Origin: Sphingopyxis sp. 2PD
GTDB lineage: Bacteria; Pseudomonadota; Alphaproteobacteria; Sphingomonadales; Sphingomonadaceae
Assembly: GCF_005503695.1 (NCBI RefSeq)
Contig: NZ_SCMU01000007.1
Coordinates: 1-64,000 of the forward strand
Direction: 5' to 3'
Length of the DNA stretch: 64,000 nucleotides
Part shown: positions 34,465 to 63,689 of the stretch, piece by piece
Numbering within the stretch: position 1 is the stretch's first letter
How the letters are laid out: each line of letters begins with the position of its first letter
Translations under genes and position numbers: made by a program
The notes under the pieces: model-generated
Told to the model about the DNA's origin: nothing
Seen by the model: the letters and a program-made list of their open reading frames with translations, nothing else
The model's database searches: none

Positions 34465-37170
34465 TCAGAACGCGGTGCGGAAGCCGACGTAGAAACGCCG
34501 TCCGAGCAGGTCATAGGTCATCGTGTCGGTGTTCGCATCGGTGAAGCTCTGGATATAGGGCGCCTTGCGATCGAAAAGATTGTCGACACCGACCTGGAAC
34601 CGGGTCTTCTCGTCGATTTCGAAAGCGACCTGGAGATTGTGGTAGAAGACATTCGGCGTGCTGTAGCCGATGTCGCCGGGGGCCGCATTGAAGTCGGTCG
34701 CCTTGCCGATCCACTGGGTCGACCAGGTCGCGCTGACCCCGTCCTTTTCAGCGGTCAGCACGCCATAGCCGCGCCATTTCGGATAGCCGCCATTGCCGCC
34801 GCCGATAAAGCCGTCGAAGTCGATCGGCGCGCCGCCGGGGAAAGGCAGGACCACATATTTGTTGAGATAGGTCACGTTGACGTCGAGCGAGACGTTCACG
34901 CTGCCGATGTCATTGTTGTAAACGAGACCCAGATCGAGGCCGTTCATTTCTTCGCGGCCCGTGTTGATCGGTTGCGCGGAGAGGAAGGTAACCTCGCCGG
35001 TCAACGGGCTGCGGGTAAAATCTTCGCAGAAGGGATGCGAAAGATTCTGGCTCGCATAACAAATGCTGAGCTTTGTCGAGCCCGGAATAGCACGGATCGC
35101 ATCCTTGATCTTGATGTCGAACCAGTCGGCAGTGAGCGAGAGTCCCGGAACCAGTCCCTTCGGTGAAATCACCGTCCCGACGGTCCAGGTCGTCGAGCTT
35201 TCGGGTTTCAGATTCTCGTTGCCGCCGACCGTTGTCAGGATCGTTGTACCGAGCTGAACATAATTGGCCGGCACGCCCGACGCCTGACAATTGGCGATCA
35301 GTGTCGCATTGCCGCTGGTCGAATAGCGCGAGCAGGGGTCGGTGGTCGTCAGATTGCCCTCGGAGACGCCGCCGAACAATTCGGGGACGTTCGGAATGCG
35401 AAAGCCGGTGCCGTAGGTGCCGCGCAGGCGGAAGCTGTCATTGATGACCCAGTCGACGCTCCCCTTGTAGTTCCAGTCGCTGCCGAACAGGTCGTAGTTC
35501 GAGTAGCGAACCGCGCCGTCGAGGGTAAGCGACTGGAAGAAGGGTGTGTCGGCCAGAACGGGCACCGACAGTTCGAGATAGGCTTCCTTCGCCGTGCTCG
35601 TTCCGGAGATCGGATCCTGCTGGTTGGTGTTGGCAATACCGAGCACCGTCAGCGGATCGGGATCGCGCCAACCCTTTTCCTTGCGATAGACGACACCCGC
35701 CGCGAAGGAGACGGGGCCTGCGGGCAGCTTGAAGAGATCGCCGTTGATATCGGCGGTGACCGTCGCAAGCTCGTTGCCGCCGCGGTCGCGCGACGTGAAC
35801 AGGATATAGTCGAGAACCTCCGGGGTCAGGTCGCCGAACCCGAGATAGTCGGCGCAGGGGATCGTGGCACCGGCAGCAAGACTGCACTTGGTCGTATCGA
35901 GGGAATTCGCCACTCGCTCGAGATTGGCGATGTTGGTCGAACCATCGACCGCGGTGTTGCGGCCGAAGGCGCCCGCGATTTCCCATCCCCAATCGTTAGA
36001 GAGCTTGCCGCGGAGGCCAAACGTACCCTGCCAGGTATCGGTTTCCTGGAAGAATTGGCGCGGGCCGGGCTCGGCGAGGCGGCGCTGGATGAGGACGATA
36101 TTCTGCCCCGTCGGATTGGTGGGATTGCTCGCCGCGATCGAGAGGTTGCGCAGCGTTCCGGGCGTCGCGATCTGATTCGACTTGCGGAAGGTGTAAAGGA
36201 ATTCGCCGAACGCCTCGATATTGTCAGTGATGTCATAGTCGGCGAAAAACGCCGTGCTCACGCGCTCGACCGGGCTCACCGCGTTGAGGAACGGGTTCGA
36301 GTTGAAGTTGTGCTTGGCAGCGCTGTACGGCTCGAAGAAGTTGCCGTTACCGCCCAGCACCTGATTGAAGTTGATCTGCTGGCCGTTCGGCAGCACCGCG
36401 CGGCCGCCGATCGTCGAGGCGCTGTTCACGCAGCTCAGCATGCCGGGCGTGGTTTCGGCAAGCGAGCAAGGCGCGCGCGTTGCCATATTGACCGCGCTCG
36501 TCTTCTGATAGGTGACCGCCGCCATGAAACCGCCGCGATCGTTGCGGACGCCCCACAGGAGGTCGGCGGTGAAGTCCGAGCCATCGCCCTTTTCGGTGAT
36601 GCCTTGGCGCACGCTGAGGCCGAGGCCTTCATAGTCAGTGCGGGTCACGAGGTTGACCACGCCCGCCATCGCGTCGGCGCCATAGATCGCCGAGGCGCCG
36701 TCCTTGAGCACATCGGTGCGCGCGAGCGCCGCGACCGGGATCATGTTAAGATCGGGCGAGGAGTTCGCGCCGGTGCCGCCCGCGACGAGGCGGCGGCCGT
36801 TGAGCAGAACAAGCGTGCGCTTGATGCCGAGACCGCGCAGGTTCACCTGCGCCGTGCCATATCCATTGTTCGCCCAATAGGCGGAGGTCTGGTTGCCTGC
36901 GAAGCCGGCGTTGGCGGGAAGGCGCTGCAGCACCGTCTCGATATTGACGACGCCGGTGTTCTCGATCTGCTCGGCCGACACGACGGTCGCGGGGCCGACG
37001 CCCGCGAGATCCTGGCGACGAATGCGCGAGCCGGTCACGACGATGTCCGATCCGTTCGGAGCATCCTCCGCGGCGGGTGACTGCGTCGCAGCATCGCTCT
37101 GCGCGAGCGCTGGCGTTGCAAAGGTCGCGACCGCTGCGGCGCTGGCGAGCAAAATTGTCCTGGTCATCAT
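34465..37170 (-). CDS. TonB-dependent receptor 1
   Basis: This 901-aa outer-membrane receptor has a signal peptide ending A-L-A-Q, a TonB-box-like region (D-I-V-V-T-G-S-R-I) and the plug domain with R-T-L-V-L-L-N-G-R-R-L and A-S-A-I-Y-G-A-D-A-M-A-G-V. A 22-strand barrel ends in R-R-F-Y-V-G-F-R-T-A-F. The asparagine-rich loops are typical of sphingomonad receptors for peptides, sugars or small organic compounds, and the ligand is unknown. The promoter carries a HutC-type operator, which points to an amino-acid-derived ligand. It is first in an operon with two PepSY genes. Confidence 0.92.
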   Translation of the reverse strand: MMTRTILLASAAAVATFATPALAQSDAATQSPAAEDAPNGSDIVVTGSRIRRQDLAGVGPATVVSAEQIENTGVVNIETVLQRLPANAGFAGNQTSAYWANNGYGTAQVNLRGLGIKRTLVLLNGRRLVAGGTGANSSPDLNMIPVAALARTDVLKDGASAIYGADAMAGVVNLVTRTDYEGLGLSVRQGITEKGDGSDFTADLLWGVRNDRGGFMAAVTYQKTSAVNMATRAPCSLAETTPGMLSCVNSASTIGGRAVLPNGQQINFNQVLGGNGNFFEPYSAAKHNFNSNPFLNAVSPVERVSTAFFADYDITDNIEAFGEFLYTFRKSNQIATPGTLRNLSIAASNPTNPTGQNIVLIQRRLAEPGPRQFFQETDTWQGTFGLRGKLSNDWGWEIAGAFGRNTAVDGSTNIANLERVANSLDTTKCSLAAGATIPCADYLGFGDLTPEVLDYILFTSRDRGGNELATVTADINGDLFKLPAGPVSFAAGVVYRKEKGWRDPDPLTVLGIANTNQQDPISGTSTAKEAYLELSVPVLADTPFFQSLTLDGAVRYSNYDLFGSDWNYKGSVDWVINDSFRLRGTYGTGFRIPNVPELFGGVSEGNLTTTDPCSRYSTSGNATLIANCQASGVPANYVQLGTTILTTVGGNENLKPESSTTWTVGTVISPKGLVPGLSLTADWFDIKIKDAIRAIPGSTKLSICYASQNLSHPFCEDFTRSPLTGEVTFLSAQPINTGREEMNGLDLGLVYNNDIGSVNVSLDVNVTYLNKYVVLPFPGGAPIDFDGFIGGGNGGYPKWRGYGVLTAEKDGVSATWSTQWIGKATDFNAAPGDIGYSTPNVFYHNLQVAFEIDEKTRFQVGVDNLFDRKAPYIQSFTDANTDTMTYDLLGRRFYVGFRTAF

Positions 37171-37248: not shown

Positions 37249-37455
37249 TCATATCAATTGGTTATGAAGTAAATTCCGGGCGCACGATACCTACTAGATA
37301 CGCACCCCAAAGCTCTACCCCTCATCAATTTTGAAATTTTTTCCGGCCTGAGCCTTTTCGCGCAAGGAGCCGGCGGGCCCCTCCCTCGGCTTGCTTATGA
37401 AATGACATGATTAAGTGGGTCGGCACAGCTTGGGGGCGCGACCGACTTGAGCCGC

Positions 37456-46785: not shown

Positions 46786-47310
46786 TCATGCGCGGAATTC
46801 AGAAACCTTGCCGTCGCTGCCGAATGCCATCACTTCGAATGCGTCCGCGCTTCCGTCCGGCATTTCCATTCCCGGAGAACCGCGCGGCATGCCGGGCACG
46901 GCGATTCCGCGAATGTCGCGTGGCTTGTCGTGGAGGAGTCTCGCAACATGCCGCATCGGCACATGACCCTCGATCGCATAGCCGCCGATCACGGCCGTGT
47001 GGCACGACGCCAGCTGGCCAGGCACACCATATCGCGTCTTTACGGCGGCCATGTCAGCGCGGTTCTCGACAGTCACATCATAACCGGCCTTGCGTGCGAT
47101 ATCCGCCCAAGCTTCGCAGCAGCCGCATTCGGGATCGCGATAAACGAGCATTCGCTTGGGGCTGGACGTCTCGGCGCCCGGCGCGGGCGCCGCGCCATTC
47201 TTATCGCTGGTCGCCGCCGGGCCCGAGGCAGAATTGCATGCCGCAAGCGCCATCCCCGATCCGACCGCAATCAGGCCGAAAAGATGACGGCGCGTCATCA
47301 GATTTTTCAT
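46786..47310 (-). CDS. DUF411 periplasmic copper-related protein
   Basis: This 174-aa protein has an export signal with a lipobox-like A-L-A-A-C. The DUF411 core has D-P-E-C-G-C-C-E-A-W (Cys-x-Cys-Cys), C-H-T-A-V-I, G-H-V-P and G-I-A-V-P-G-M-P-R-G-S-P-G-M-E-M. These residues are thought to bind copper in the periplasm. The gene starts two bases before the DUF305 gene ends, in one block. It is common next to copA/copB in sphingomonads. Confidence 0.85.
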   Translation of the reverse strand: MKNLMTRRHLFGLIAVGSGMALAACNSASGPAATSDKNGAAPAPGAETSSPKRMLVYRDPECGCCEAWADIARKAGYDVTVENRADMAAVKTRYGVPGQLASCHTAVIGGYAIEGHVPMRHVARLLHDKPRDIRGIAVPGMPRGSPGMEMPDGSADAFEVMAFGSDGKVSEFRA

Positions 47311-47311
47311 G

Positions 47312-47755
47312 TCATTTCCTCGCGAGAATGGATTTCATCTGTTCGATTTCGGCCGCCTGCCCCGCGATGATGCCGCGGCAGAGTTCGCGTATCTCGGCAT
47401 CTTTGAGAGAAGCCTGTTCACACATGAGGATCGCGCCCGAGTGATGCGGGATCATCGAACGCAAGAAGGCCGTGTCGCCGATCGTCGTCTGTGTCCGGAT
47501 GAGCCCGAAGCTCCCGAAGAAGGCAACTGCCGATCCCAGCAGCAGGAACGTATTGAGACGTTTCGACGGGAACATGCCCGGCATTGCGACGATCATCAGC
47601 ACGACCATCGGCGAGACCATCATCAGCGTCATGTAGAGCATGTTGAGATTATTGTAGAAGCTCGAGAGGCGGTCGATCATGACGAACATCACCAGATACA
47701 TGATGACGCCGCTGACGATCGTCTGCAGCGCGAGGCTGCGATAGGCTGGTTTCAC
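47312..47755 (-). CDS. DUF305 membrane protein
   Basis: This 147-aa protein has membrane helices near residues 5-25, 37-57 and 67-90, then a DUF305 C-terminus with M-I-P-H-H-S-G-A-I-L-M-C and the closing helix. The HHS/Met-Cys motif is a plausible copper site. GTG 47753-47755 is chosen because GAGGAG lies seven bases upstream; the in-frame ORF reaches further without homology. Confidence 0.8.
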   Translation of the reverse strand: MKPAYRSLALQTIVSGVIMYLVMFVMIDRLSSFYNNLNMLYMTLMMVSPMVVLMIVAMPGMFPSKRLNTFLLLGSAVAFFGSFGLIRTQTTIGDTAFLRSMIPHHSGAILMCEQASLKDAEIRELCRGIIAGQAAEIEQMKSILARK

Positions 47756-47793
47756 GGCATTTCTCCTCGACGTGTCGCCACCCCGCGAAACTT

Positions 47794-49005
47794 CTAGAAC
47801 CAGGCCCGCACCCCCATCACGAAGCTGACGCCGCTCGCATCCTCGCCCGCGGCGCGGGCAAAACGCGCGGTATCGCCGACCTTGCGCGCCCATTCGACGC
47901 CGACATAAGGCGCGAATTCCTTCACGACCTCGTAACGCAGGCGAAGCCCGAGCTCGAAATCCGAAAGCCCCGAACCAACGCCGGTCTCGGGGACATCCTG
48001 GAGCGCAAAATTGACCTCCGCCATCGGCTGGAGGATCAGTTTCTGGGTGATGCGCTGGTCGTAATAGCCTTCGAGCCGGGCGAGCAGATCACCCTTGTTC
48101 GAAAGAAACAGCGCGCCCTCGACTTCGAACCAATAGGGGGCGAGCCCCTCGAAGCCGATCGTCGCATAGGTGCGGTCGGGGCCGGGCCCAAGATCCTGCC
48201 TGATACCCGCCTGCGCGTTGAAATAGGGTCCGATCGCCCGGCTGTAGAGCGCCTGTACCTCGGCGCTCTCGATGCCTTCGCCGAACACGCCCTCGCCTTC
48301 GCTCTTGATCGTCAGCCGGTTAATGTCGCCGCCGTACCAAGCCTCACCGTCCCAGCGGAACCCGTCGCGGCCCTTGCGCGCCTGATATTCGGCAAGGTTG
48401 AAGCTGATGAAAGCGATGGTCTGCGCACCATTCTCTTTCATCATGTCGTGGCGCGAATGCTCCATTTCGGCTTGGGGATAAATGCGATCGGCATACCAGT
48501 CGCCGGGAGGCGCAGGCGCGGTAGCATCGCCCGGCGGCAAATCGGTGCCGCTAGCGCTGCTCGTGGTCGCCATGCCTTCCATTCCCGCCATCGCGTCCGC
48601 AGATCCGCCCTTCGGGGTGCAATGGCCCATTTTGGCATGTTCGGGCGGGCAATCGGGATCGGACGGCTGCGGTGCGCCATGATCCATCGCACCCATGTCC
48701 GAAGCGCCCTTGCCTGGAGCTTCCGCCTCAGGCGTACAATGACCCATCGCCGCATGTTCGGGCGGGCAGCTTGAAGCCTCGGGTTCCATGTCCATGCCCT
48801 GCATGTTCCCATGGTCCATCTGCTCCATCGACCCTTCGGCGGGCGCTTCGGGCGCGGACTGCGCTACGGGTGCTGGCGTTGGCGAGGGAGCGGGTGTCGG
48901 CGCGGGCGCCGCACCATGCATCGAATGATCCATCGACTGCGCCGCGGCGGGCACAGCAAAGGCCAGCGGGGCGATACCCGCGAGGAGAAGCGCGACCCGG
49001 GTCAT
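47794..49005 (-). CDS. copB: CopB, copper-resistance outer-membrane protein
   Basis: This 403-aa protein has a signal peptide, a Met/His/Pro-rich region (about 20-150) with M-D-H-G-N-M-Q-G-M-D-M and two C-P-P-E-H-A-x-M-G-H-C-T-P motifs. A beta-barrel end follows from about 165 (D-W-Y-A-D-R-I-Y to G-V-R-A-W-F). CopB binds copper in the outer membrane. It starts by overlapping the copA stop (ATGA), and its Cys-containing motif is shared with CopA. Confidence 0.9.
   Translation of the reverse strand: MTRVALLLAGIAPLAFAVPAAAQSMDHSMHGAAPAPTPAPSPTPAPVAQSAPEAPAEGSMEQMDHGNMQGMDMEPEASSCPPEHAAMGHCTPEAEAPGKGASDMGAMDHGAPQPSDPDCPPEHAKMGHCTPKGGSADAMAGMEGMATTSSASGTDLPPGDATAPAPPGDWYADRIYPQAEMEHSRHDMMKENGAQTIAFISFNLAEYQARKGRDGFRWDGEAWYGGDINRLTIKSEGEGVFGEGIESAEVQALYSRAIGPYFNAQAGIRQDLGPGPDRTYATIGFEGLAPYWFEVEGALFLSNKGDLLARLEGYYDQRITQKLILQPMAEVNFALQDVPETGVGSGLSDFELGLRLRYEVVKEFAPYVGVEWARKVGDTARFARAAGEDASGVSFVMGVRAWF
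48614..48651 (-). repeat. Copy of the CPPEH-GHCTP coding repeat in copB
   Basis: This encodes C-P-P-E-H-A-K-M-G-H-C-T-P. The same 13-residue unit is found at 48731 in copB and 49614 in copA, with DNA identity between copies well above what codon choice would need. Confidence 0.7.
48731..48770 (-). repeat. Second copy of the CPPEH-GHCTP repeat in copB
   Basis: This encodes C-P-P-E-H-A-A-M-G-H-C-T-P. It shares the core GTTCGGGCGGGCA and the AATG/CCCAT stretch with the other copies. Confidence 0.7.
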
Positions 49006-50843
49006 TCGCCGTCTCCCTTCGGACGGACGCTGACGACGCGCATCATCCCCGCGTGCATGTGATAGAGAAGGTGGCAATGGAACGCCCAGTCGCCGAGCGC
49101 GTCGGCGGTGAAATCGAAGCTCGCGATGCCGCCCGGCTGGACAAGCACCGTATGCTTGCGCGGCGACCGGTCGCCCTTGCCCGTCACCAGTTCGAAAAAA
49201 TGGCCGTGGAGGTGGATGGGGTGGCTCATCATCGAATCGTTGATGAGGTTGATCCGCACGCGCTCTCCCTCGATGAAGGGGATGGGCTCGTGATAGTCGG
49301 ACATCTTGATGCCGTCGAACGACCACATGAAGCGTTCCATATTGCCGGTCAGATGGATGTCGAGCGAGCGCGAGGCGGCGCGGGTATCGGGGTTGCGCTC
49401 GAGCGCGACAAGGTCATGGTAGGTCAGCACCTTGTGCCCGACATTCTCCAGTCCCTGCCCCGGCTCGCCCATGCGATCCATCGGCATCGGCGAGATCGTC
49501 TGAACGCTGGGATCGCGCTTGACCTGCGGCGCGACACTGAAGTCGCGCATGCTGTGCTGCATGCCTCCGCCAGATCCATGATCCATGCCCGCCATCGCGC
49601 CGCTTTCCCCCGCTGGCGTACAATGGCCCATCTTGGCATGTTCGGGAGGACAAGAAGGGTCGCTCGCCGGCATGGGCATGGCGCCCATATCGCCGCCCGA
49701 ATGGTCCATACCCGCCATCGCGCCGCCCGACATGTCGCCCATGCCCATGTCCTTCATGGTCGCGAGCGGCCGTTCGCGGAGCGGCGGCACCTCGGCGACC
49801 ATGCCAGCGCGCGGTGCGAGCGTCGCGCGTCCCATGCCCGAGCGGTCATTGGCCTCGGCAACGAGCGTATAAGCACGGTCCTCGACCGGGGTCACGATGA
49901 CGTCATAGGTTTCGGCGACCGCGATCTGGAACTCGTCGATTTCGGTCGGCACGACATTGAGCCCATCAGCCTGGACGACGGTCATCCTGAGGCCCGGGAT
50001 ACGGACGTTGAAGATCGTCATCGCCGACGCATTGACGATGCGCAGGCGTACCCGCTCGCCGGGGCTGAAGAGCGCGGTCCAGTTGTCGCGCGGACCATGG
50101 CCGTTGACGAGGAAGGTGTAGGTCGAACCATTGACGTCGGCGACGTCGGTCGGGTCCATCCGCATCTTGCCCCAATCGATCCGCTCCTTGAGCGGTTGAT
50201 CCTTGCCGGCAAGCAGGCCCGCCAGCGTCTGGCGCTGCATGTTGAAATGGCCGGGATTGACCTTGAGCTTGCGGAAGATCGCCTCGGGCGACAATTGACT
50301 GTGGTCGGACAGGACGACGACATGCTCGCGGTCGTAGCCGATCGGGTCGGCGCCCGCGGGATCGATGACGATCGGGCCATAATGGCCGAGCTGTTCCTGA
50401 AGCCCCGAATGGCTGTGATACCAATAGGTCCCCGATTGAACGACCGGGAATTCATAGACAAACTTCGAGCGCGGCTTGATCCCGGGGAAGCTGACGCCGG
50501 GCACGCCGTCCATCTGGAACGGCAGGATCAGGCCGTGCCAGTGAATCGAGCTGTCCTCGTCGAGATCGTTGACGACGGTGAGGCGCGCGTTTTGTCCCTC
50601 CTTCAGCCGGACGAGCGGCGCGGGCACGGTGCCGTTGATCCCGATCGCGCGACTGACCTTGCCGTCGATGCGCATCGTCTGGCGCGCGATGCGCAGCGTT
50701 ATGTCATTGCCGGATACGGTCGGAAGCGGCGCGGTGATGCCGGACGACACCGGCTGGGCCCAGGCCGGGAACCATGCGGCCATCGCCGCAGCAGCCCCTC
50801 CACCCAAAGCTCCACTGACGAACCGACGCCTTTCCATCTGCAT
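49002..50843 (-). CDS. copA: CopA, multicopper oxidase of copper resistance
   Basis: This is a 613-aa periplasmic multicopper oxidase that oxidises Cu(I) and sequesters copper. It has a Tat signal (E-R-R-R-F-V-S-G). The copper sites are H101-W-H103-G, H143-S-H145, H-P-I-H-L-H-G-H and H-C-H-L-L-Y-H-M-H. A Met/His-rich loop (M-G-M-G-D-M-S-G) also carries the C-P-P-E-H-A-K-M-G-H-C-T-P unit shared with CopB. copB follows with an ATGA overlap. The promoter lies in 50844-50956. Confidence 0.95.
   Translation of the reverse strand: MQMERRRFVSGALGGGAAAAMAAWFPAWAQPVSSGITAPLPTVSGNDITLRIARQTMRIDGKVSRAIGINGTVPAPLVRLKEGQNARLTVVNDLDEDSSIHWHGLILPFQMDGVPGVSFPGIKPRSKFVYEFPVVQSGTYWYHSHSGLQEQLGHYGPIVIDPAGADPIGYDREHVVVLSDHSQLSPEAIFRKLKVNPGHFNMQRQTLAGLLAGKDQPLKERIDWGKMRMDPTDVADVNGSTYTFLVNGHGPRDNWTALFSPGERVRLRIVNASAMTIFNVRIPGLRMTVVQADGLNVVPTEIDEFQIAVAETYDVIVTPVEDRAYTLVAEANDRSGMGRATLAPRAGMVAEVPPLRERPLATMKDMGMGDMSGGAMAGMDHSGGDMGAMPMPASDPSCPPEHAKMGHCTPAGESGAMAGMDHGSGGGMQHSMRDFSVAPQVKRDPSVQTISPMPMDRMGEPGQGLENVGHKVLTYHDLVALERNPDTRAASRSLDIHLTGNMERFMWSFDGIKMSDYHEPIPFIEGERVRINLINDSMMSHPIHLHGHFFELVTGKGDRSPRKHTVLVQPGGIASFDFTADALGDWAFHCHLLYHMHAGMMRVVSVRPKGDGE
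49614..49652 (-). repeat. CPPEH-GHCTP repeat in copA
   Basis: This is the third copy of the metal-binding unit, inside the Met-rich loop of CopA. Confidence 0.7.
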
Positions 50844-50956
50844 ATTCTTTCCGACCGTTACTGACTGTTCCTAAAGCTATACGCAGGCGGCACGCCTGCC
50901 CCTCAATAAAAATGCCGGACGATGAGGAGATGCCGCCTGAACGAGCGGTCGAACCC

Positions 50957-51541
50957 TCAACCCTCGGCGCTCGCAGATGTTCCCGCGAGCAATTCCCGGA
51001 GCCTGGTCCGCGCTCGATAGAGGCGCGTTTCGACTGTTTTCTCGCTGACCCGCAAAATGACCGCTGTTTCGGCCTGGCTGACCTCGTCGACACCGCGGAG
51101 GAGCAACACTTCGCGCAAATTCTGCGGCAGCTGATCGATCGCCCCGCGAACCCTGGCGAGCTCTCGCCTGTCGGTCGCCGCGGAATCGGGCCCAGGACCA
51201 TCGCTTGCTACGTGATGCGCATTTTCGAGCGGGAGCGCGCGGGAGAAAAAGGCGCGCACCTTTCGCCGTCGTGCCCAGTCGCGACATTTGTTGAGCGCGA
51301 TACGGGCGATCCATGTGCGGAAGGGGCGTTCGCCATCATAGCGATCGAGCGCCGAAAAGCCGGAGACGAACGTCTCCTGCGTCAAATCCATCGCCTCGTC
51401 GGCATCGCCGATCTGCTTTACGATGAGCCGGTAGACGCCCGTTTTGTAACGGCGCAGCAACTCGCGATAGGCGTCTTCGCGGTGCGCGCGCGCAAAGGCC
51501 GCCAGATCCTGGTCGCTACATTGCGATAGGTCGGCGCTCAC
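50957..51541 (-). CDS. ECF sigma factor (CnrH-like)
   Basis: This is a 194-aa ECF RNA polymerase sigma factor. Region 2 has D-L-T-Q-E-T-F-V-S-G-F and F-R-T-W-I-A-R-I-A-L-N-K, and region 4 has L-P-Q-N-L-R-E-V-L-L-L-R-G-V and V-S-E-K-T-V-E-T-R-L-Y-R-A-R-T-R-L. It is the last gene of a three-gene operon with a CnrX-like sensor and a CnrY-like anti-sigma, the order seen in cnrYXH of Cupriavidus. It overlaps the sensor stop by four bases. Targets probably include the copA promoter just downstream. Confidence 0.9.
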   Translation of the reverse strand: MSADLSQCSDQDLAAFARAHREDAYRELLRRYKTGVYRLIVKQIGDADEAMDLTQETFVSGFSALDRYDGERPFRTWIARIALNKCRDWARRRKVRAFFSRALPLENAHHVASDGPGPDSAATDRRELARVRGAIDQLPQNLREVLLLRGVDEVSQAETAVILRVSEKTVETRLYRARTRLRELLAGTSASAEG

Positions 51542-51975
51542 CGCGCATCGGCGGTCAGCGCCTTGACCACGCTTTTGTCGAACATTTCCGCTTGATCGGG
51601 GTTGAGAACCCCGCGCATCGCGAAGAGATGCTGGAGCGTTTCCTTCTGCAATGTCCCCATCACCTCATGCGTCTCGTCGATCGCCTCGGTGACGCGCGGT
51701 CCATAGCCATGCTCGGCTTCGATCGCCTGCGCGAGCCGGACATTGGCGGCGCGCATCTCGAGTTCGAGCGCCTGGCGGCGACCGGCGAAGTCGGCTTCGA
51801 TCCGCTCGAGTTTCTTTTCCTGCTCCGGGGTCAGGTCGAGTTGGCCGTGGAGAAGCGCATGAAGTTCGGTTTCGCTGGCTTTGGGCGCATCGGCTACCAG
51901 ACGGCCGATGAACACGCCGGCAATCGCCGCGGCGAAGGCAATGAGCCCCAAGAGAAGAAGACGGCGCGACGGCAT
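51538..51975 (-). CDS. CnrX-like periplasmic metal sensor
   Basis: This 145-aa membrane-anchored sensor has one N-terminal helix (residues 5-24), then a helical hairpin. The metal ligands of CnrX (His42, His46, Glu63, His119, Met123) are all present at H39, H43, E60, H116 and M120, with exactly the same spacing. In CnrX these bind Ni or Co and start release of the sigma factor. The sensor is encoded between the anti-sigma and sigma genes. Confidence 0.88.
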   Translation of the reverse strand: MPSRRLLLLGLIAFAAAIAGVFIGRLVADAPKASETELHALLHGQLDLTPEQEKKLERIEADFAGRRQALELEMRAANVRLAQAIEAEHGYGPRVTEAIDETHEVMGTLQKETLQHLFAMRGVLNPDQAEMFDKSVVKALTADAR

Positions 51976-51977
51976 CG

Positions 51978-52244
51978 CTACTGTACATCCAGCAAGGTGG
52001 AAGGCACCAATGCGCTAGGCGGGCCGAATGGGGTCAGGGGGCTTGCCGCGACCGCCGGCTGGGAAATCGCACTCCCCGCAAAGACACCGCCGCCGAGCGA
52101 GACAAAGGCCGCGAGCGCCATCAGGCGGCGCATCGCTACCGCTTCGCGCCGGCGGATCGCCAATGCGCCCATGATGCGATCATCGAGCGCATCGAGCGCT
52201 GCGGGCAGATCGATCCTGTTCAAAATGCGAAGCTCCTTATCCAT
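51978..52244 (-). CDS. CnrY-like anti-sigma factor
   Basis: This 88-aa protein has a cytoplasmic helix (L-N-R-I-D-L-P-A-A-L-D-A-L-D-D-R-I) followed by one membrane helix (about residues 42-62) and a short periplasmic tail. That layout is of the CnrY type: it holds the sigma factor at the membrane until the CnrX-like sensor binds metal. The sequence is not strongly conserved, so the call rests on gene order and form. ATG 52244 follows GAAGAGACG. Confidence 0.7.
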   Translation of the reverse strand: MDKELRILNRIDLPAALDALDDRIMGALAIRRREAVAMRRLMALAAFVSLGGGVFAGSAISQPAVAASPLTPFGPPSALVPSTLLDVQ

Positions 52245-52315
52245 CGATCGTCTCTTCAAACCTTTCCATCATTGTACATACGCGCCGAAGCGCCTCACCC
52301 CTCACACCAGAATAT

Positions 52316-52327: not shown

Positions 52328-52387
52328 TTTGAGGGCCATGCCGATATCCTGCGTATTAGCAGGACAGACACGCATTTGGAGGTGTTC

Positions 52388-52771
52388 ATGTTCAAGTCTC
52401 TTCTCCCCTCTGCAGCGGCGGCTTTCGCTCTGCTTCTCATGCCGGCCACGGCAAGCGCGCACACCAAGCTCGTCAGCTCGACGCCCGCCGCCAATTCGAC
52501 CGTTTCGAAGGTCACGTCGGTCAATCTTCAGTTCAACGAAAAGATCGTCGCCTCGACCCTCAAGACCGAGCTGGTCATGACCGGCATGCCCGGCATGGCC
52601 AATCATGCCCCGATGAAGGTGCCTTACTCGTCGATGATGGGCAAAGAGGGCAAGTCGGCGATGCTGATGCTCAAGCGGCCGCTGACAGCCGGAACCTACA
52701 AGGTCACATGGTCGGCGGCGGGCGCTGATACCCACCGCATGGGCAGCGAATTCAGCTTCACCGTAAAGTAA
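52388..52771 (+). CDS. copC: CopC, periplasmic copper-binding protein
   Basis: This 127-aa copper carrier has a signal peptide ending T-A-S-A and a mature start H-T-K-L-V-S-S-T-P-A with the N-terminal His that binds Cu(II). It also has a Met-rich stretch (M-T-G-M-P-G-M-A) and the closing D-T-H-R-M-G-S-E-F-S-F-T-V. ATG 52388 is used because GGAGG lies five bases upstream. copD follows by six bases. Confidence 0.92.
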   Translation: MFKSLLPSAAAAFALLLMPATASAHTKLVSSTPAANSTVSKVTSVNLQFNEKIVASTLKTELVMTGMPGMANHAPMKVPYSSMMGKEGKSAMLMLKRPLTAGTYKVTWSAAGADTHRMGSEFSFTVK

Positions 52772-52777
52772 AAGACG

Positions 52778-53746
52778 GTGGGGGACCCCGTTCTGATCGG
52801 CATCAGGTTCGCACTTTATGCGGACCTGATGCTCATCGCCGGCCTTGCTGCGTTCCCGCTTTTTGCGCTGACACGGAGCGAACGCCTTGCGCCGCAGTCG
52901 ATGATGGCCTCGATCTGGCGCGCAGAGCGATGGCTCTGCGCCGCCGGACTGCTTCTCTCCATCTTGGGGATGGGCGTGCTCGCGGCTTCGATGCAGGGTG
53001 TGGGGCTCCTCTCCCTGGAACTCCAGCCTTTTTGGGACCTTGTTCGCGAGACCGAGGTCGGCACAGCCTGGGTCTACCGGAGCGCAGCGCTGCTGCTCGC
53101 GCTGGGAGTCGCGATCTGGATGGTCCGCTGGCCGACAACTTCGGCCGCCGTACTCGCGGCCGCGGGCTCGGTGGCCGTCGCGAGTCTGGTCTGGTCCGGC
53201 CACGCCGGCGCGACCGAAGGCGCCGCAGGCACCGTGCACCGGATCAGCGACATCTTGCACCTGATTGCAGCGGCGGTCTGGATCGGCGCGATCGGCGCCT
53301 TCCTGATCCTGATCTCACCACGTCGTGTCCGCGAATGGCCGGGCGGACTCCAAATTGCGGCGCGGAGCCTCGATCAATTCTCGCGCGTCGGTACGATCTG
53401 CGTCCTCGTCATCGCCGCCACCGGCCTCGTCAACAGCCAGATGATCGTCGGCGCCGAGAATCTCGGCCGTTCCCTCGGCTCGCCCTATGGACAATTGCTT
53501 CTCGCCAAGCTTGCGCTGTTCGGACTGATGCTGGCGCTCGCGGCGGCGAACCGCTGGCGGCTGACCCCGGCGCTCGCGGCCGCCGTCCCGGGGACCGATA
53601 CCGACAATGTCGACGCCGACCCCGACCTCGCGATTGCAGCCATGCGCAGAAGCCTCATCATCGAAGCGTCGGCCGCGCTCGCCATACTCGCGCTGGTTGC
53701 CTGGTTCGGTACGCTCGAACCCTTCGTCACCGCCGATCCGGTTTGA
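52778..53746 (+). CDS. copD: CopD, inner-membrane copper transport protein
   Basis: This 322-aa protein has about eight membrane helices of the CopD/YcnJ type and accepts copper from CopC. Conserved parts are V-W-S-G-H-A-G-A and D-I-L-H-L-I-A-A-A-V-W-I-G-A with histidines in membrane segments. Translation starts with GTG 52778 and is probably coupled to copC. Confidence 0.88.
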   Translation: MGDPVLIGIRFALYADLMLIAGLAAFPLFALTRSERLAPQSMMASIWRAERWLCAAGLLLSILGMGVLAASMQGVGLLSLELQPFWDLVRETEVGTAWVYRSAALLLALGVAIWMVRWPTTSAAVLAAAGSVAVASLVWSGHAGATEGAAGTVHRISDILHLIAAAVWIGAIGAFLILISPRRVREWPGGLQIAARSLDQFSRVGTICVLVIAATGLVNSQMIVGAENLGRSLGSPYGQLLLAKLALFGLMLALAAANRWRLTPALAAAVPGTDTDNVDADPDLAIAAMRRSLIIEASAALAILALVAWFGTLEPFVTADPV

Positions 53747-60928: not shown

Positions 60929-63043
60929 TCAGAAAAAGTAGCGCAGCTGCAATCCGTACTGGCGCGGCTCGCCGTAGATGTAGAGCGGAAGAGTAGGGTT
61001 CGAGACACCCGTCGCGTCCGTCCCGATCGTACTATAGCTCACATAGCGCTCGTTGGTGAGATTTCGGCCATAAAGCGCAATTTCCCACGCTTCGCTCGCC
61101 GGCTGCCATGCGACACGCCCATTTATAAGGGTCGTGGCGTTTCCGGAAAAAAGCGGATTGTTGCTGGGCTTGAAAAAGATGCTGTCGCGCCAGGAGATAT
61201 CGGTCCGTAATGTCAGCATTCCGCCGCCCAGGGAGGCCTTATATTCTCCGCCGAGAGTGATGTTCCACTTCGGCGCGTTCGGCAGCCGCTTGCCCTTGAG
61301 GCTTGCGCCGACGTCGTCAAAATAGACATCGTAGCGCGCATCGAGATAAGCGATCGTGGATGTAAGCGTCAGGCGATCGAACGGCCGTGCCATCAGTTCC
61401 GCTTCAACGCCCTTGATCGTCGCCTTGCCGGCGTTGGTGGTACTGGCAACGCCATTATTATACTCGACCACCTGAAGATTGGTGTAATCATAATAGAAGG
61501 CCGAAAAATTAGCTCGAAGCCGGCGATCGAGGAGCGTCGACTTCAAGCCGACTTCGTAGCTCCAGACATACTCCGGGAGGAAAGGCCGCCCGTCTCCCAG
61601 CTGGAATCCACCCGATTTGAACCCGCGGGTTGCCGACGCATAAGCCATGACGTCATCGGCAAGGTCGTAATCGATCCCAATTTTCGGAGTCCAGGCGGTC
61701 CAGGATGATTTGGGCTGACCGGCATCGACCTGATTTCCGTTCAGCAGGACACGATATCCGAAATCCTTTTTTTCGTATGAGTATCGAAGCCCTCCGGTCA
61801 ATCGCAGGCGGTCGATGAGTTCGTAGCTTGCTTGTCCGAAGAGCGCGAATGCATTCGTCGTATTGTTTTCCGGGATCGCGAGCCGACGACCCGGTTCGAT
61901 GATCCGTATTTCGTCGTTGCCCTTTTCATTCAGATAGAATGCTCCGACGATCCAGCGCAGCTTGTCCGCATCGTTGTTGAGAAGTTGGAACTCTTGCGTG
62001 AAACTGCGGGAACGTTCGTAAAATTCGATATCGCGGAGGAAGAGGTCAGTCGAGTCAACGTCGAGCGCCTGGACGACCTTGCTCTTGCGCAGCGCCGTAA
62101 TCGAGCGGAGCGTGACCGGGCCGCCGTCCCAGTTCATGGTCGAGGACACGCCCCAGGCATCGACATCGTAACGCGGCAGGCGGTCGAGTGCGGCCTCTTT
62201 GTCATTGGCCGGGATCGTCGCCCCCGCATCGACGAAGCCTTGCGGATAAAAGGGCCGAACAGACCGCGCGCCGGTCTCGCGATCACGGCTGGCATCCGCC
62301 CGCAACACGATCTCAAGACGGTCGCTCGCGTCAATCGCAAGCGTCAGTCGTCCAGCGAGATTATCTTCGTTTTGGTATCGCCGTCCCGAGACGACGTCGC
62401 GGTAGATGCCGTCGCGCTGGTTGGCAAGCAAGGTGAGGCGGCCTCGGACGCCCGCTCCAAGCGGTCCAGAAATCGTGCCGCTCAGCGAGCGCTTCTCGTA
62501 ATTTCCGACGGTGAGTCCCAGCGCGCCAGTCAAATCCTCCGTAGGCATTTTGGAAATGATGTTGAGTGTGCCGCCGGCGGAGTTGCGACCGAAGAGAACG
62601 CCTTGCGGTCCGCGCAGCACCTCGATGCGTTCGACGTCGAACAAATCCTGATAGCTTGTGGTCGGGCGCGAGATGTAGACGCCGTCATAATGGACTGTCG
62701 TGCTGGGGTCGGTCGCAACGCCGAACGCCGAGGTGCCAATTCCACGAATATTGATGATCGCCATGGAATCGTTGGTGATCGACACGCCCGGCACAAAAAA
62801 TTGGAGGTCTTCGACGTTTGATATGCCCGTTGCCGTAAGCGCCTCGCCGGTCATCGCTGTCACCGAGACGGGAACGGACTGCAGATTTTCCTCGCGCTTC
62901 TCCGCCGTTACGATGATCTCGGCGAGGCCGTCCGACTGGGCTTCCTGAGCCTGCGCGGGAAACGCGACCGCCACCGCAATCGCCGCCATCGAGCTTCGCT
63001 GCATTGCGCGCTTCGTCGACGAATAACAGTATAATTTGTTCAT
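60929..63043 (-). CDS. TonB-dependent receptor 3
   Basis: This 704-aa outer-membrane receptor has a signal peptide ending P-A-Q-A-Q, a TonB box near A-E-I-I-V-T-A-E-K-R-E-E-N-L-Q-S, and the plug with V-L-R-G-P-Q-G-V-L-F-G-R-N-S-A-G-G-T. The barrel ends G-L-Q-L-R-Y-F-F. The plug signature is of the broad sphingomonad iron-complex/FecA-like group, and the ligand is unknown. The start at 63043 follows AGGGGAAG. It is the only gene between the putative nuclease and the CueR-like gene. Confidence 0.9.
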   Translation of the reverse strand: MNKLYCYSSTKRAMQRSSMAAIAVAVAFPAQAQEAQSDGLAEIIVTAEKREENLQSVPVSVTAMTGEALTATGISNVEDLQFFVPGVSITNDSMAIINIRGIGTSAFGVATDPSTTVHYDGVYISRPTTSYQDLFDVERIEVLRGPQGVLFGRNSAGGTLNIISKMPTEDLTGALGLTVGNYEKRSLSGTISGPLGAGVRGRLTLLANQRDGIYRDVVSGRRYQNEDNLAGRLTLAIDASDRLEIVLRADASRDRETGARSVRPFYPQGFVDAGATIPANDKEAALDRLPRYDVDAWGVSSTMNWDGGPVTLRSITALRKSKVVQALDVDSTDLFLRDIEFYERSRSFTQEFQLLNNDADKLRWIVGAFYLNEKGNDEIRIIEPGRRLAIPENNTTNAFALFGQASYELIDRLRLTGGLRYSYEKKDFGYRVLLNGNQVDAGQPKSSWTAWTPKIGIDYDLADDVMAYASATRGFKSGGFQLGDGRPFLPEYVWSYEVGLKSTLLDRRLRANFSAFYYDYTNLQVVEYNNGVASTTNAGKATIKGVEAELMARPFDRLTLTSTIAYLDARYDVYFDDVGASLKGKRLPNAPKWNITLGGEYKASLGGGMLTLRTDISWRDSIFFKPSNNPLFSGNATTLINGRVAWQPASEAWEIALYGRNLTNERYVSYSTIGTDATGVSNPTLPLYIYGEPRQYGLQLRYFF

Positions 63044-63689
63044 TATGCTTCCCCTGTTTCGAAGAACTGCCCTTTCGCGCAGCCCAAATGAGTTTCGGGG
63101 AAGTCGAGGACAAAAACATGCATGCCCGGAAACCGCTGCTTACGGCTTCCGAGTTCAAGCACCCAACATCCCCTACTGACATTGATTACGCACCAGAACG
63201 ACTCATCCCTCAAAAATGGTTCGGGCGACGTAAAACCATCGGAATTGGGCTCCCCGATTTGTTCAGATCGCCAGGATGAAGTTGATCCGGAACGCCCAAA
63301 GGCTCCTTCCTTCATCCAGAAGCGGCGCTTTTCGCTTCTGCCCCTCGTCGGAGCCTTGGTCGGCGCCGTGCACGTGACGCAATCGCTCGCTTGACCCTAT
63401 GGTCAGGTCTTCCCCGTGGAAGCCTATTTGTTCGCTCTGATGCCGGTCCTAGCCGCGGAGATTCGATGGCGCCTGACCCAGGCACTTCGGACGGCCGTCG
63501 CAACTCCGGACGCGGCAGCGGCGAGACACTGCGGCTGCGATCCGCGCTAGCCTTCAGCTCGATGTCGCAGCCGGAGTTACCATCCCATCGCTTGTAGCCG
63601 GGATGCTGGAACCATTTGCGACCGATTGACACCAGTTTGAGGGAGGTGAGACGGGCCGTCAGCACCATCCGCCCCCAAGACCAGTCGGG
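63044..63689. other. Gene-free interval
   Basis: Reading frames here are short, lack good starts and match nothing I know. A perfect 8-bp stem CAGAAGCG/CGCTTCTG (8-base loop) is at 63317-63340. A short hydrophobic in-frame stretch just after it may be a decayed gene, but this is weak. Confidence 0.4.

Follow-up and report, generated by a model that had tools for sequence, protein, structure and literature searches.

Introduction

The CnrYXH system is the textbook example of a periplasmic nickel and cobalt sensor acting through a sigma factor, and a locus in Sphingopyxis sp. 2PD raises the question of which metal such a module detects when its neighbors are copper resistance genes. The window, which is the whole stretch of 64,000 nucleotides that was analyzed, lies on a contig (C51) of the 3.58-Mb host genome and carries a putative anti-sigma factor, a CnrX-like sensor and an ECF sigma factor beside a set of cop genes. 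The preliminary description of this DNA offered two alternatives, a sensor that responds to copper or copper resistance that is induced by nickel and cobalt. The present analysis favors the first of these and argues against the second, based on the predicted promoter targets, the conserved copper linkage and two residues of the sensor (H103 and M106); a CnrYXH-type trans-membrane switch controlling a copper regulon, with copper as the signal, is assigned a probability of about 0.77.

Organization of the locus

The anti-sigma factor, the periplasmic sensor and the ECF sigma factor are arranged in one operon in that order, as in a CnrYXH-type module, with the sensor stop overlapping the sigma start on the minus strand (51541 versus 51538). 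Both the extent of the module (50957-52244) and its cnrYXH order had been given correctly beforehand, and the copA, copB and copC neighbors named at that time are borne out by profile matches, with copD also present (Table 1). The copC and copD genes diverge from the genes for the anti-sigma factor, sensor, sigma factor, CopA and CopB. The start of copB was set at MTRVALLL, overlapping the copA stop, and the anti-sigma reading frame as listed opens at a TTG codon at 52259 (93 aa), with the start at 52244 being more likely because the relatives begin with M-D/E-E-L. Beyond the window, at about 64-103 kb of the same contig (loci L191 and L192), lies a further metal-resistance stretch containing three RND pumps of the CusA/CzcA family, one other RND pump, a CDF-like protein and a P-type ATPase.

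Table 1. Genes and predicted promoter elements of the copper-linked module within the window.
Feature	Position	Strand	Basis or remark
Two PepSY_TM proteins after the TonB-dependent receptor at 34465-37170	34453-33749, 33797-33018	-	
TonB-dependent receptor, predicted regulon member	34465..37170	-	PF00593/PF07715/PF03929; motif upstream
Sigma-type promoter TGAGGG-N16-CGTAT of the TonB-dependent receptor at 34465-37170	37298..37324	-	
DUF411 protein, 3' of copB, probable copper-locus accessory	46786..47310	-	PF04214; recurs in relatives
DUF305/CopM-like protein, 3' of copB	47312..47893	-	PF03713; NF049983 CopM below cut-off
copB, outer-membrane copper resistance protein	47794..49005	-	PF05275, 303 bits
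copA, multicopper oxidase	49002..50843	-	TIGR01480, 812 bits (cut-off 479)
Sigma-type promoter TGAGGG-N16-CGTAT of copA, between sigma and copA	50879..50905	-	
ECF sigma factor, CnrH-like, 194 aa	50957..51541	-	39.8% identity to CnrH over 181 aa
Periplasmic metal sensor resembling CnrX, 145 aa	51538..51975	-	PF13801; pentad H39 H43 E60 H116 M120 plus clade-specific H103, M106
Putative CnrY-like anti-sigma factor	51978..52244	-	CnrY-like in position, size and its one hydrophobic stretch
Sigma-type promoter TGAGGG-N16-CGTAT of the anti-sigma-sensor-sigma operon	52278..52304	-	
Sigma-type promoter TGAGGG-N16-CGTAT of copC-copD	52330..52356	+	
copC, periplasmic copper-binding protein	52388..52771	+	NF033814, 101 bits (cut-off 95)
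copD, copper membrane protein	52778..53746	+	NF033808, 288 bits (cut-off 195)
Second TonB-dependent receptor, predicted regulon member	60929..63043	-	PF00593/PF07715; motif upstream
Near-match TGAGGG-N16-CGTAA before the second TonB-dependent receptor	63186..63212	-	

The putative anti-sigma factor consists of a short N-terminal cytoplasmic part, one transmembrane helix and a periplasmic tail ending in PxxLL. It has no match in Pfam or NCBIfam and no direct blastp match to CnrY, though its size, topology and C-terminal PxxLL are the same. Most copper-linked copies end in A-P-[ST]-x-L-L, CnrY ends in SPFGLL and the cnr copies of the Caulobacteraceae type in SPSNLL, and the sensor may make contact with this tail. 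The sigma factor ends in RLRELLAGTSASAEG and is without a Cys-rich tail.

The sensor and its CnrX-type ligands

The sensor belongs to the Metal_resist family (PF13801, 67.5 bits, cut-off 29.2), and it has no Metal_resist paralogue elsewhere in the host genome. Its matches among PDB sequences include NccX as the best (4clv, E 4.9e-18) and CnrX (E 7.3e-16), the alignment with both being free of gaps over residues 33-141, with an overall identity to CnrX of 33%. With a constant offset of +3, residues H39, H43, E60, H116 and M120 correspond to H42, H46, E63, H119 and M123 of CnrX, so that the earlier claim of all five ligands at identical spacing holds; a chance match of the ligands was ruled out, as the whole domain aligns without gaps. 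An AlphaFold model built with 38 sequences (mean pLDDT 81) has CnrX as its best fold in the PDB (Foldseek 2y3d, target-normalized TM 0.89, E 3.8e-6), and NccX was matched as well. The five residues are thus the ligand set of CnrX, but calling them a nickel and cobalt set was too strong, since the title of PDB entry 3epv names CnrX in its apo and copper-bound forms and the pentad is therefore not specific to these two metals.

Distribution and linkage to copper genes

The sensor occurs in 82 of 200 Sphingomonadaceae genomes, representing 57 of 96 genera, and sequences 97-100% identical to that of the window are found in many Sphingopyxis genomes. It was also detected in 92 of 199 genomes of a Caulobacteraceae-type family and in 9 of 300 genomes of a Cupriavidus-type family, where the family labels are inferred from Caulobacter and Cupriavidus plasmid records carrying the same types. 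In both the Sphingomonadaceae and the Caulobacteraceae, most homologues repeat the arrangement of the window, in which copC and copD are divergent from a series of anti-sigma, sensor, sigma, copA and copB genes. For 209 sensors the neighborhood was read, and copA or copB lies nearby in 165 cases, copC or copD only in 8, a Cus-type pump or copper ATPase in 10, cnr or ncc pumps in 15 and none of these in 11. The copper linkage is maintained across dozens of genera, and the loci from the Cupriavidus-type search are all linked to cnr or ncc. An accidental neighborhood is ruled out by linkage in over 160 loci.

Mobile elements also carry sensors of the CnrX-like family. PLSDB contains 79 such plasmid records, dominated by sphingomonad plasmids, and 40 of the 79 are predicted to be conjugative, suggesting that the sensor module may travel between strains. 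Two loci (L049 and L224) each have two sensor copies that face opposite ways a few kilobases apart, and in L049 these form two sensor-sigma pairs.

A His/Met signature of the copper-linked sensors

Two further residues of the sensor, H103 and M106, were overlooked in the preliminary description; they are specific to its clade and missing from CnrX. With the copper or nickel class of each sensor assigned from its neighboring genes, both residues are present in all 166 distinct copper-linked sensors, and the corresponding positions are E and A in all seven distinct cnr- or ncc-linked sensors, a comparison between sequences that are related by descent rather than independent and that includes only these seven from the nickel and cobalt side. 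The same two groups have Q/Q and E/H, respectively, at positions 52 and 128. The invariant residues of the 166 copper-linked sensors are H103, M106, H116, Q52, Q110 and Q128. The pentad is complete in all seven cnr- or ncc-linked sensors and nearly always complete in the copper-linked ones, the exceptions being H39D in five, H43L in two, M120V/I in two and E60D in one; some copper-linked sensors thus lack a CnrX ligand, yet H103 and M106 are always kept.

The sensor tree is in agreement with this division. All cnr- and ncc-linked sensors, including the Caulobacteraceae-type members, form one clade (support 0.915), and the window sensor falls outside this clade tied to the cnrCBA and nccCBA pumps and is linked to copA, copB, copC and copD instead. 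Genome G888 contains two copper-linked sensors with H/M and a cnr-linked sensor with E/A, a coexistence which indicates that residues 103 and 106 follow the linked pump and not the host. In the model, H103, M106, H116 and M120 are all carried by the helix of residues 93-123, and H103 and M106 are separated from H116 by an estimated 15-20 Å along the helix axis (at 1.5 Å per residue, not a measured geometry). This distance makes a second site more likely than membership in the pentad site, and the two residues might also be mere structural markers of the clade. A third sensor subtype in Caulobacteraceae-type genomes (L292-L298) has lost the CnrX ligands (e.g., H/M/E/Y/V), and its position 103 is occupied by Q or E, with no copper or cnr genes recognized beside it.

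A shared promoter motif and the predicted regulon

The element TGAGGG-N16-CGTAT has exactly four matches in the host genome, all of them within the window, and shortening the -10 part to CGTA adds one more, before the second TonB-dependent receptor. A reversed control pattern gives one match to the CGTAT form and two matches to the CGTA form in the whole genome, shuffled versions of the window give 0.03 expected matches versus the four observed, and the probability of five sites randomly falling in one 26-kb stretch is about 1e-8. When one mismatch is allowed, the genome contains 15 matches versus 13 for the reversed control, and since these numbers are nearly equal the extra matches are mostly noise. 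As judged by the motif, one promoter type would serve both the operon of the sigma factor and the resistance genes next to it.

The same element recurs in the relatives. The 166 copper-linked loci (2.73 Mb) contain 374 matches, compared with 0-2 for the four control patterns. Of the 190 upstream matches, 184 have a spacer of 16. Allowing one mismatch, the motif precedes the anti-sigma gene in 119 of 134 sphingomonad loci and lies in the gap between sigma and copA in 106 of 134, almost only with a spacer of 16. The perfect motif is missing at a given site in over a third of the loci, and the sites of the Caulobacteraceae type are weaker. In Cupriavidus, the cnrY and cnrC promoters read GAGGG-N17-CGTA, with a spacer one base longer, and both depend on CnrH (PMC9045368), a similarity by which TGAGGG-N16-CGTAT looks like the -35 and -10 elements of this sigma family. 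Its position before the operon, copA and copC, repeated at the same places and with the same spacer in the relatives, suggests that the sigma factor very probably drives the cop genes.

Matches outside the core promoters extend the predicted regulon, as they precede homologues of TonB receptors (20), copC (11), copper P-type ATPases (5), copA (5) and DUF305 proteins (3), with 35 of these 82 matches located before reading frames unmatched to the query set. The receptor at 34465-37170 has homologues of 60-96% identity with the same motif in 20 other copper loci, often directly after copB, and its substrate is possibly a copper chelate. A 96% identical homologue of the second receptor (locus L007) also has the motif. 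In locus L126, 5.4 kb upstream of the sensor, and in locus L131, 2.1 kb upstream, the motif stands before the gene for a small His/Cys/Met-rich protein (MHHHMSAEMQQCMDACHHCHVTCLSM...), likely an additional regulon member. This Cys/His-rich protein resembles a copper-storage protein and has no Pfam match in its first 50 residues. Nickel and cobalt pumps were considered as extra targets and rejected, with several RND pumps encoded within 50 kb, no perfect motif near them and no perfect copy in the metal-resistance stretch beyond the window.

Copper as the probable signal

The gene order, the fold, the ligands, the H103/M106 signature and the promoter motif with its targets are supported by comparison at the level of sequence and model, and they are consistent with a switch of the following kind. 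At rest, the ECF sigma factor would be held at the membrane by the small membrane-bound anti-sigma factor, working like CnrY, and by the periplasmic sensor. Periplasmic copper, the presumed inducer, would bind the sensor at the CnrX-type His/His/Glu/His/Met site, at a second site formed by H103 and M106, or at both, and the copper-bound complex would release the sigma factor. The freed sigma factor would then read the TGAGGG-N16-CGTAT motif and start transcription of its own operon, copA(-copB), copC-copD and one or two genes for TonB-dependent receptors.

The presence of the full CnrX pentad in nearly all copper-linked sensors counts against a reading in terms of copper only. Together with the identical spacing and the shared fold, it could mean that the sensor has remained a genuine CnrX responding to nickel and cobalt, with the cop genes as its targets owing to the co-occurrence of the metals. 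This is unlikely, however, as the motif matches of the host genome precede copper genes and TonB receptors and none was found before a nickel or cobalt pump, and as the cnr-linked sensors form a separate clade distinguished by E and A at positions 103 and 106. Furthermore, H39, H43 or M120 is lost in some copper-linked sensors, and Met123 of CnrX is needed for signaling and zinc binding without it is silent (PMC7689651).

A broad periplasmic sensor of metals (Cu, Zn, Ag, Ni and Co) or of envelope stress, with the cop genes as a common output, would account for the crystallization of CnrX with nickel, cobalt, zinc and copper, as given in PDB entry titles, and for a predicted regulon that includes TonB receptors. 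It is likewise improbable, given that the recognized motif matches outside the core promoters are mainly before copper genes and TonB receptors, that zinc-bound CnrX is described as non-functional (PMC7689651), and that H103 and M106 are invariant in the copper-linked sensors. Although the host genome encodes further ECF sigma factors, it is very improbable that another sigma factor or regulator reads the motif and the cassette is a mere neighbor, because most relatives have the element in front of the sigma operon itself and it accompanies the cassette from species to species, the nearest other ECF sigma factors of the genome are just 26-36% identical to that of the window, and a similar element is found at the CnrH-dependent promoters.

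As for the origin of metal choice under copper sensing, a tentative possibility is that it is set by a second His/Met element found only in the copper branch (H103 and M106, possibly with E71 and H89) and not by the five ligands. The CnrX site would then be kept for signaling while copper is captured elsewhere, and the change of one base in the promoter spacer would separate the two sigma systems.

The module is apparently an undescribed copper-linked variant of CnrYXH, as the open-access papers searched contain no account of a CnrX-type system linked to copper. If relatives of CnrYXH in two large families do control copper resistance, the five shared ligands do not account for metal specificity, and natural pairs within the family, some of them in a single genome, could be used to locate its determinant. 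It would also explain how copAB and copCD could be controlled by an ECF sigma factor and not by a CopRS-type pair in many sphingomonads and Caulobacteraceae. Generic annotations in databases, for example "periplasmic heavy metal sensor", give no hint of the copper link, and the name "nickel sensor" transferred from CnrX would mislead.

Comparison with known systems

The closest known system is CnrYXH of Cupriavidus metallidurans, which responds to nickel and cobalt and controls cnrCBA. The two share the gene order, the fold, the five ligands, an ECF sigma factor with 40% identity, a small anti-sigma factor with one transmembrane helix and a C-terminal PxxLL, and the promoter half-sites GAGGG and CGTA. 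They differ in the predicted targets, which are copAB, copCD and TonB receptors instead of cnrCBA, in the promoter spacer (16 versus 17), in an anti-sigma factor that is not alignable to CnrY by blastp, and in the sensor residues H103, M106, Q52 and Q128, which are E, A, E and H in CnrX. NccYXH, which responds to nickel, cobalt and cadmium and controls nccCBA, shares the same features and provides the best PDB sequence match to the sensor; the differences are those noted for CnrX, with the ncc- and cnr-linked sensors forming one separate clade.

The usual regulators of copABCD are the two-component systems CopRS and CusRS. In contrast, control of the cop genes here is apparently exerted by an ECF sigma factor, and the host genome has no CopR/CusR-type regulator matching TIGR01387 above the curated cut-off. 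SigF-NrsF of Caulobacter crescentus is likewise an alphaproteobacterial ECF system and has a regulon that is induced by copper, chromium and cadmium; its anti-sigma factor is NrsF, pcoAB is absent from the listed SigF regulon and no CnrX-like sensor is mentioned (PMC8224329). CorE of Myxococcus xanthus is a copper-dependent ECF sigma factor with linked copper genes, among them one for a multicopper oxidase, and it senses copper itself via a Cys-rich C-terminal extension with no anti-sigma control (PMC10141476). The sigma factor of the window resembles CorE in this linkage but differs in being without the Cys-rich extension and in being accompanied by a sensor and an anti-sigma factor.
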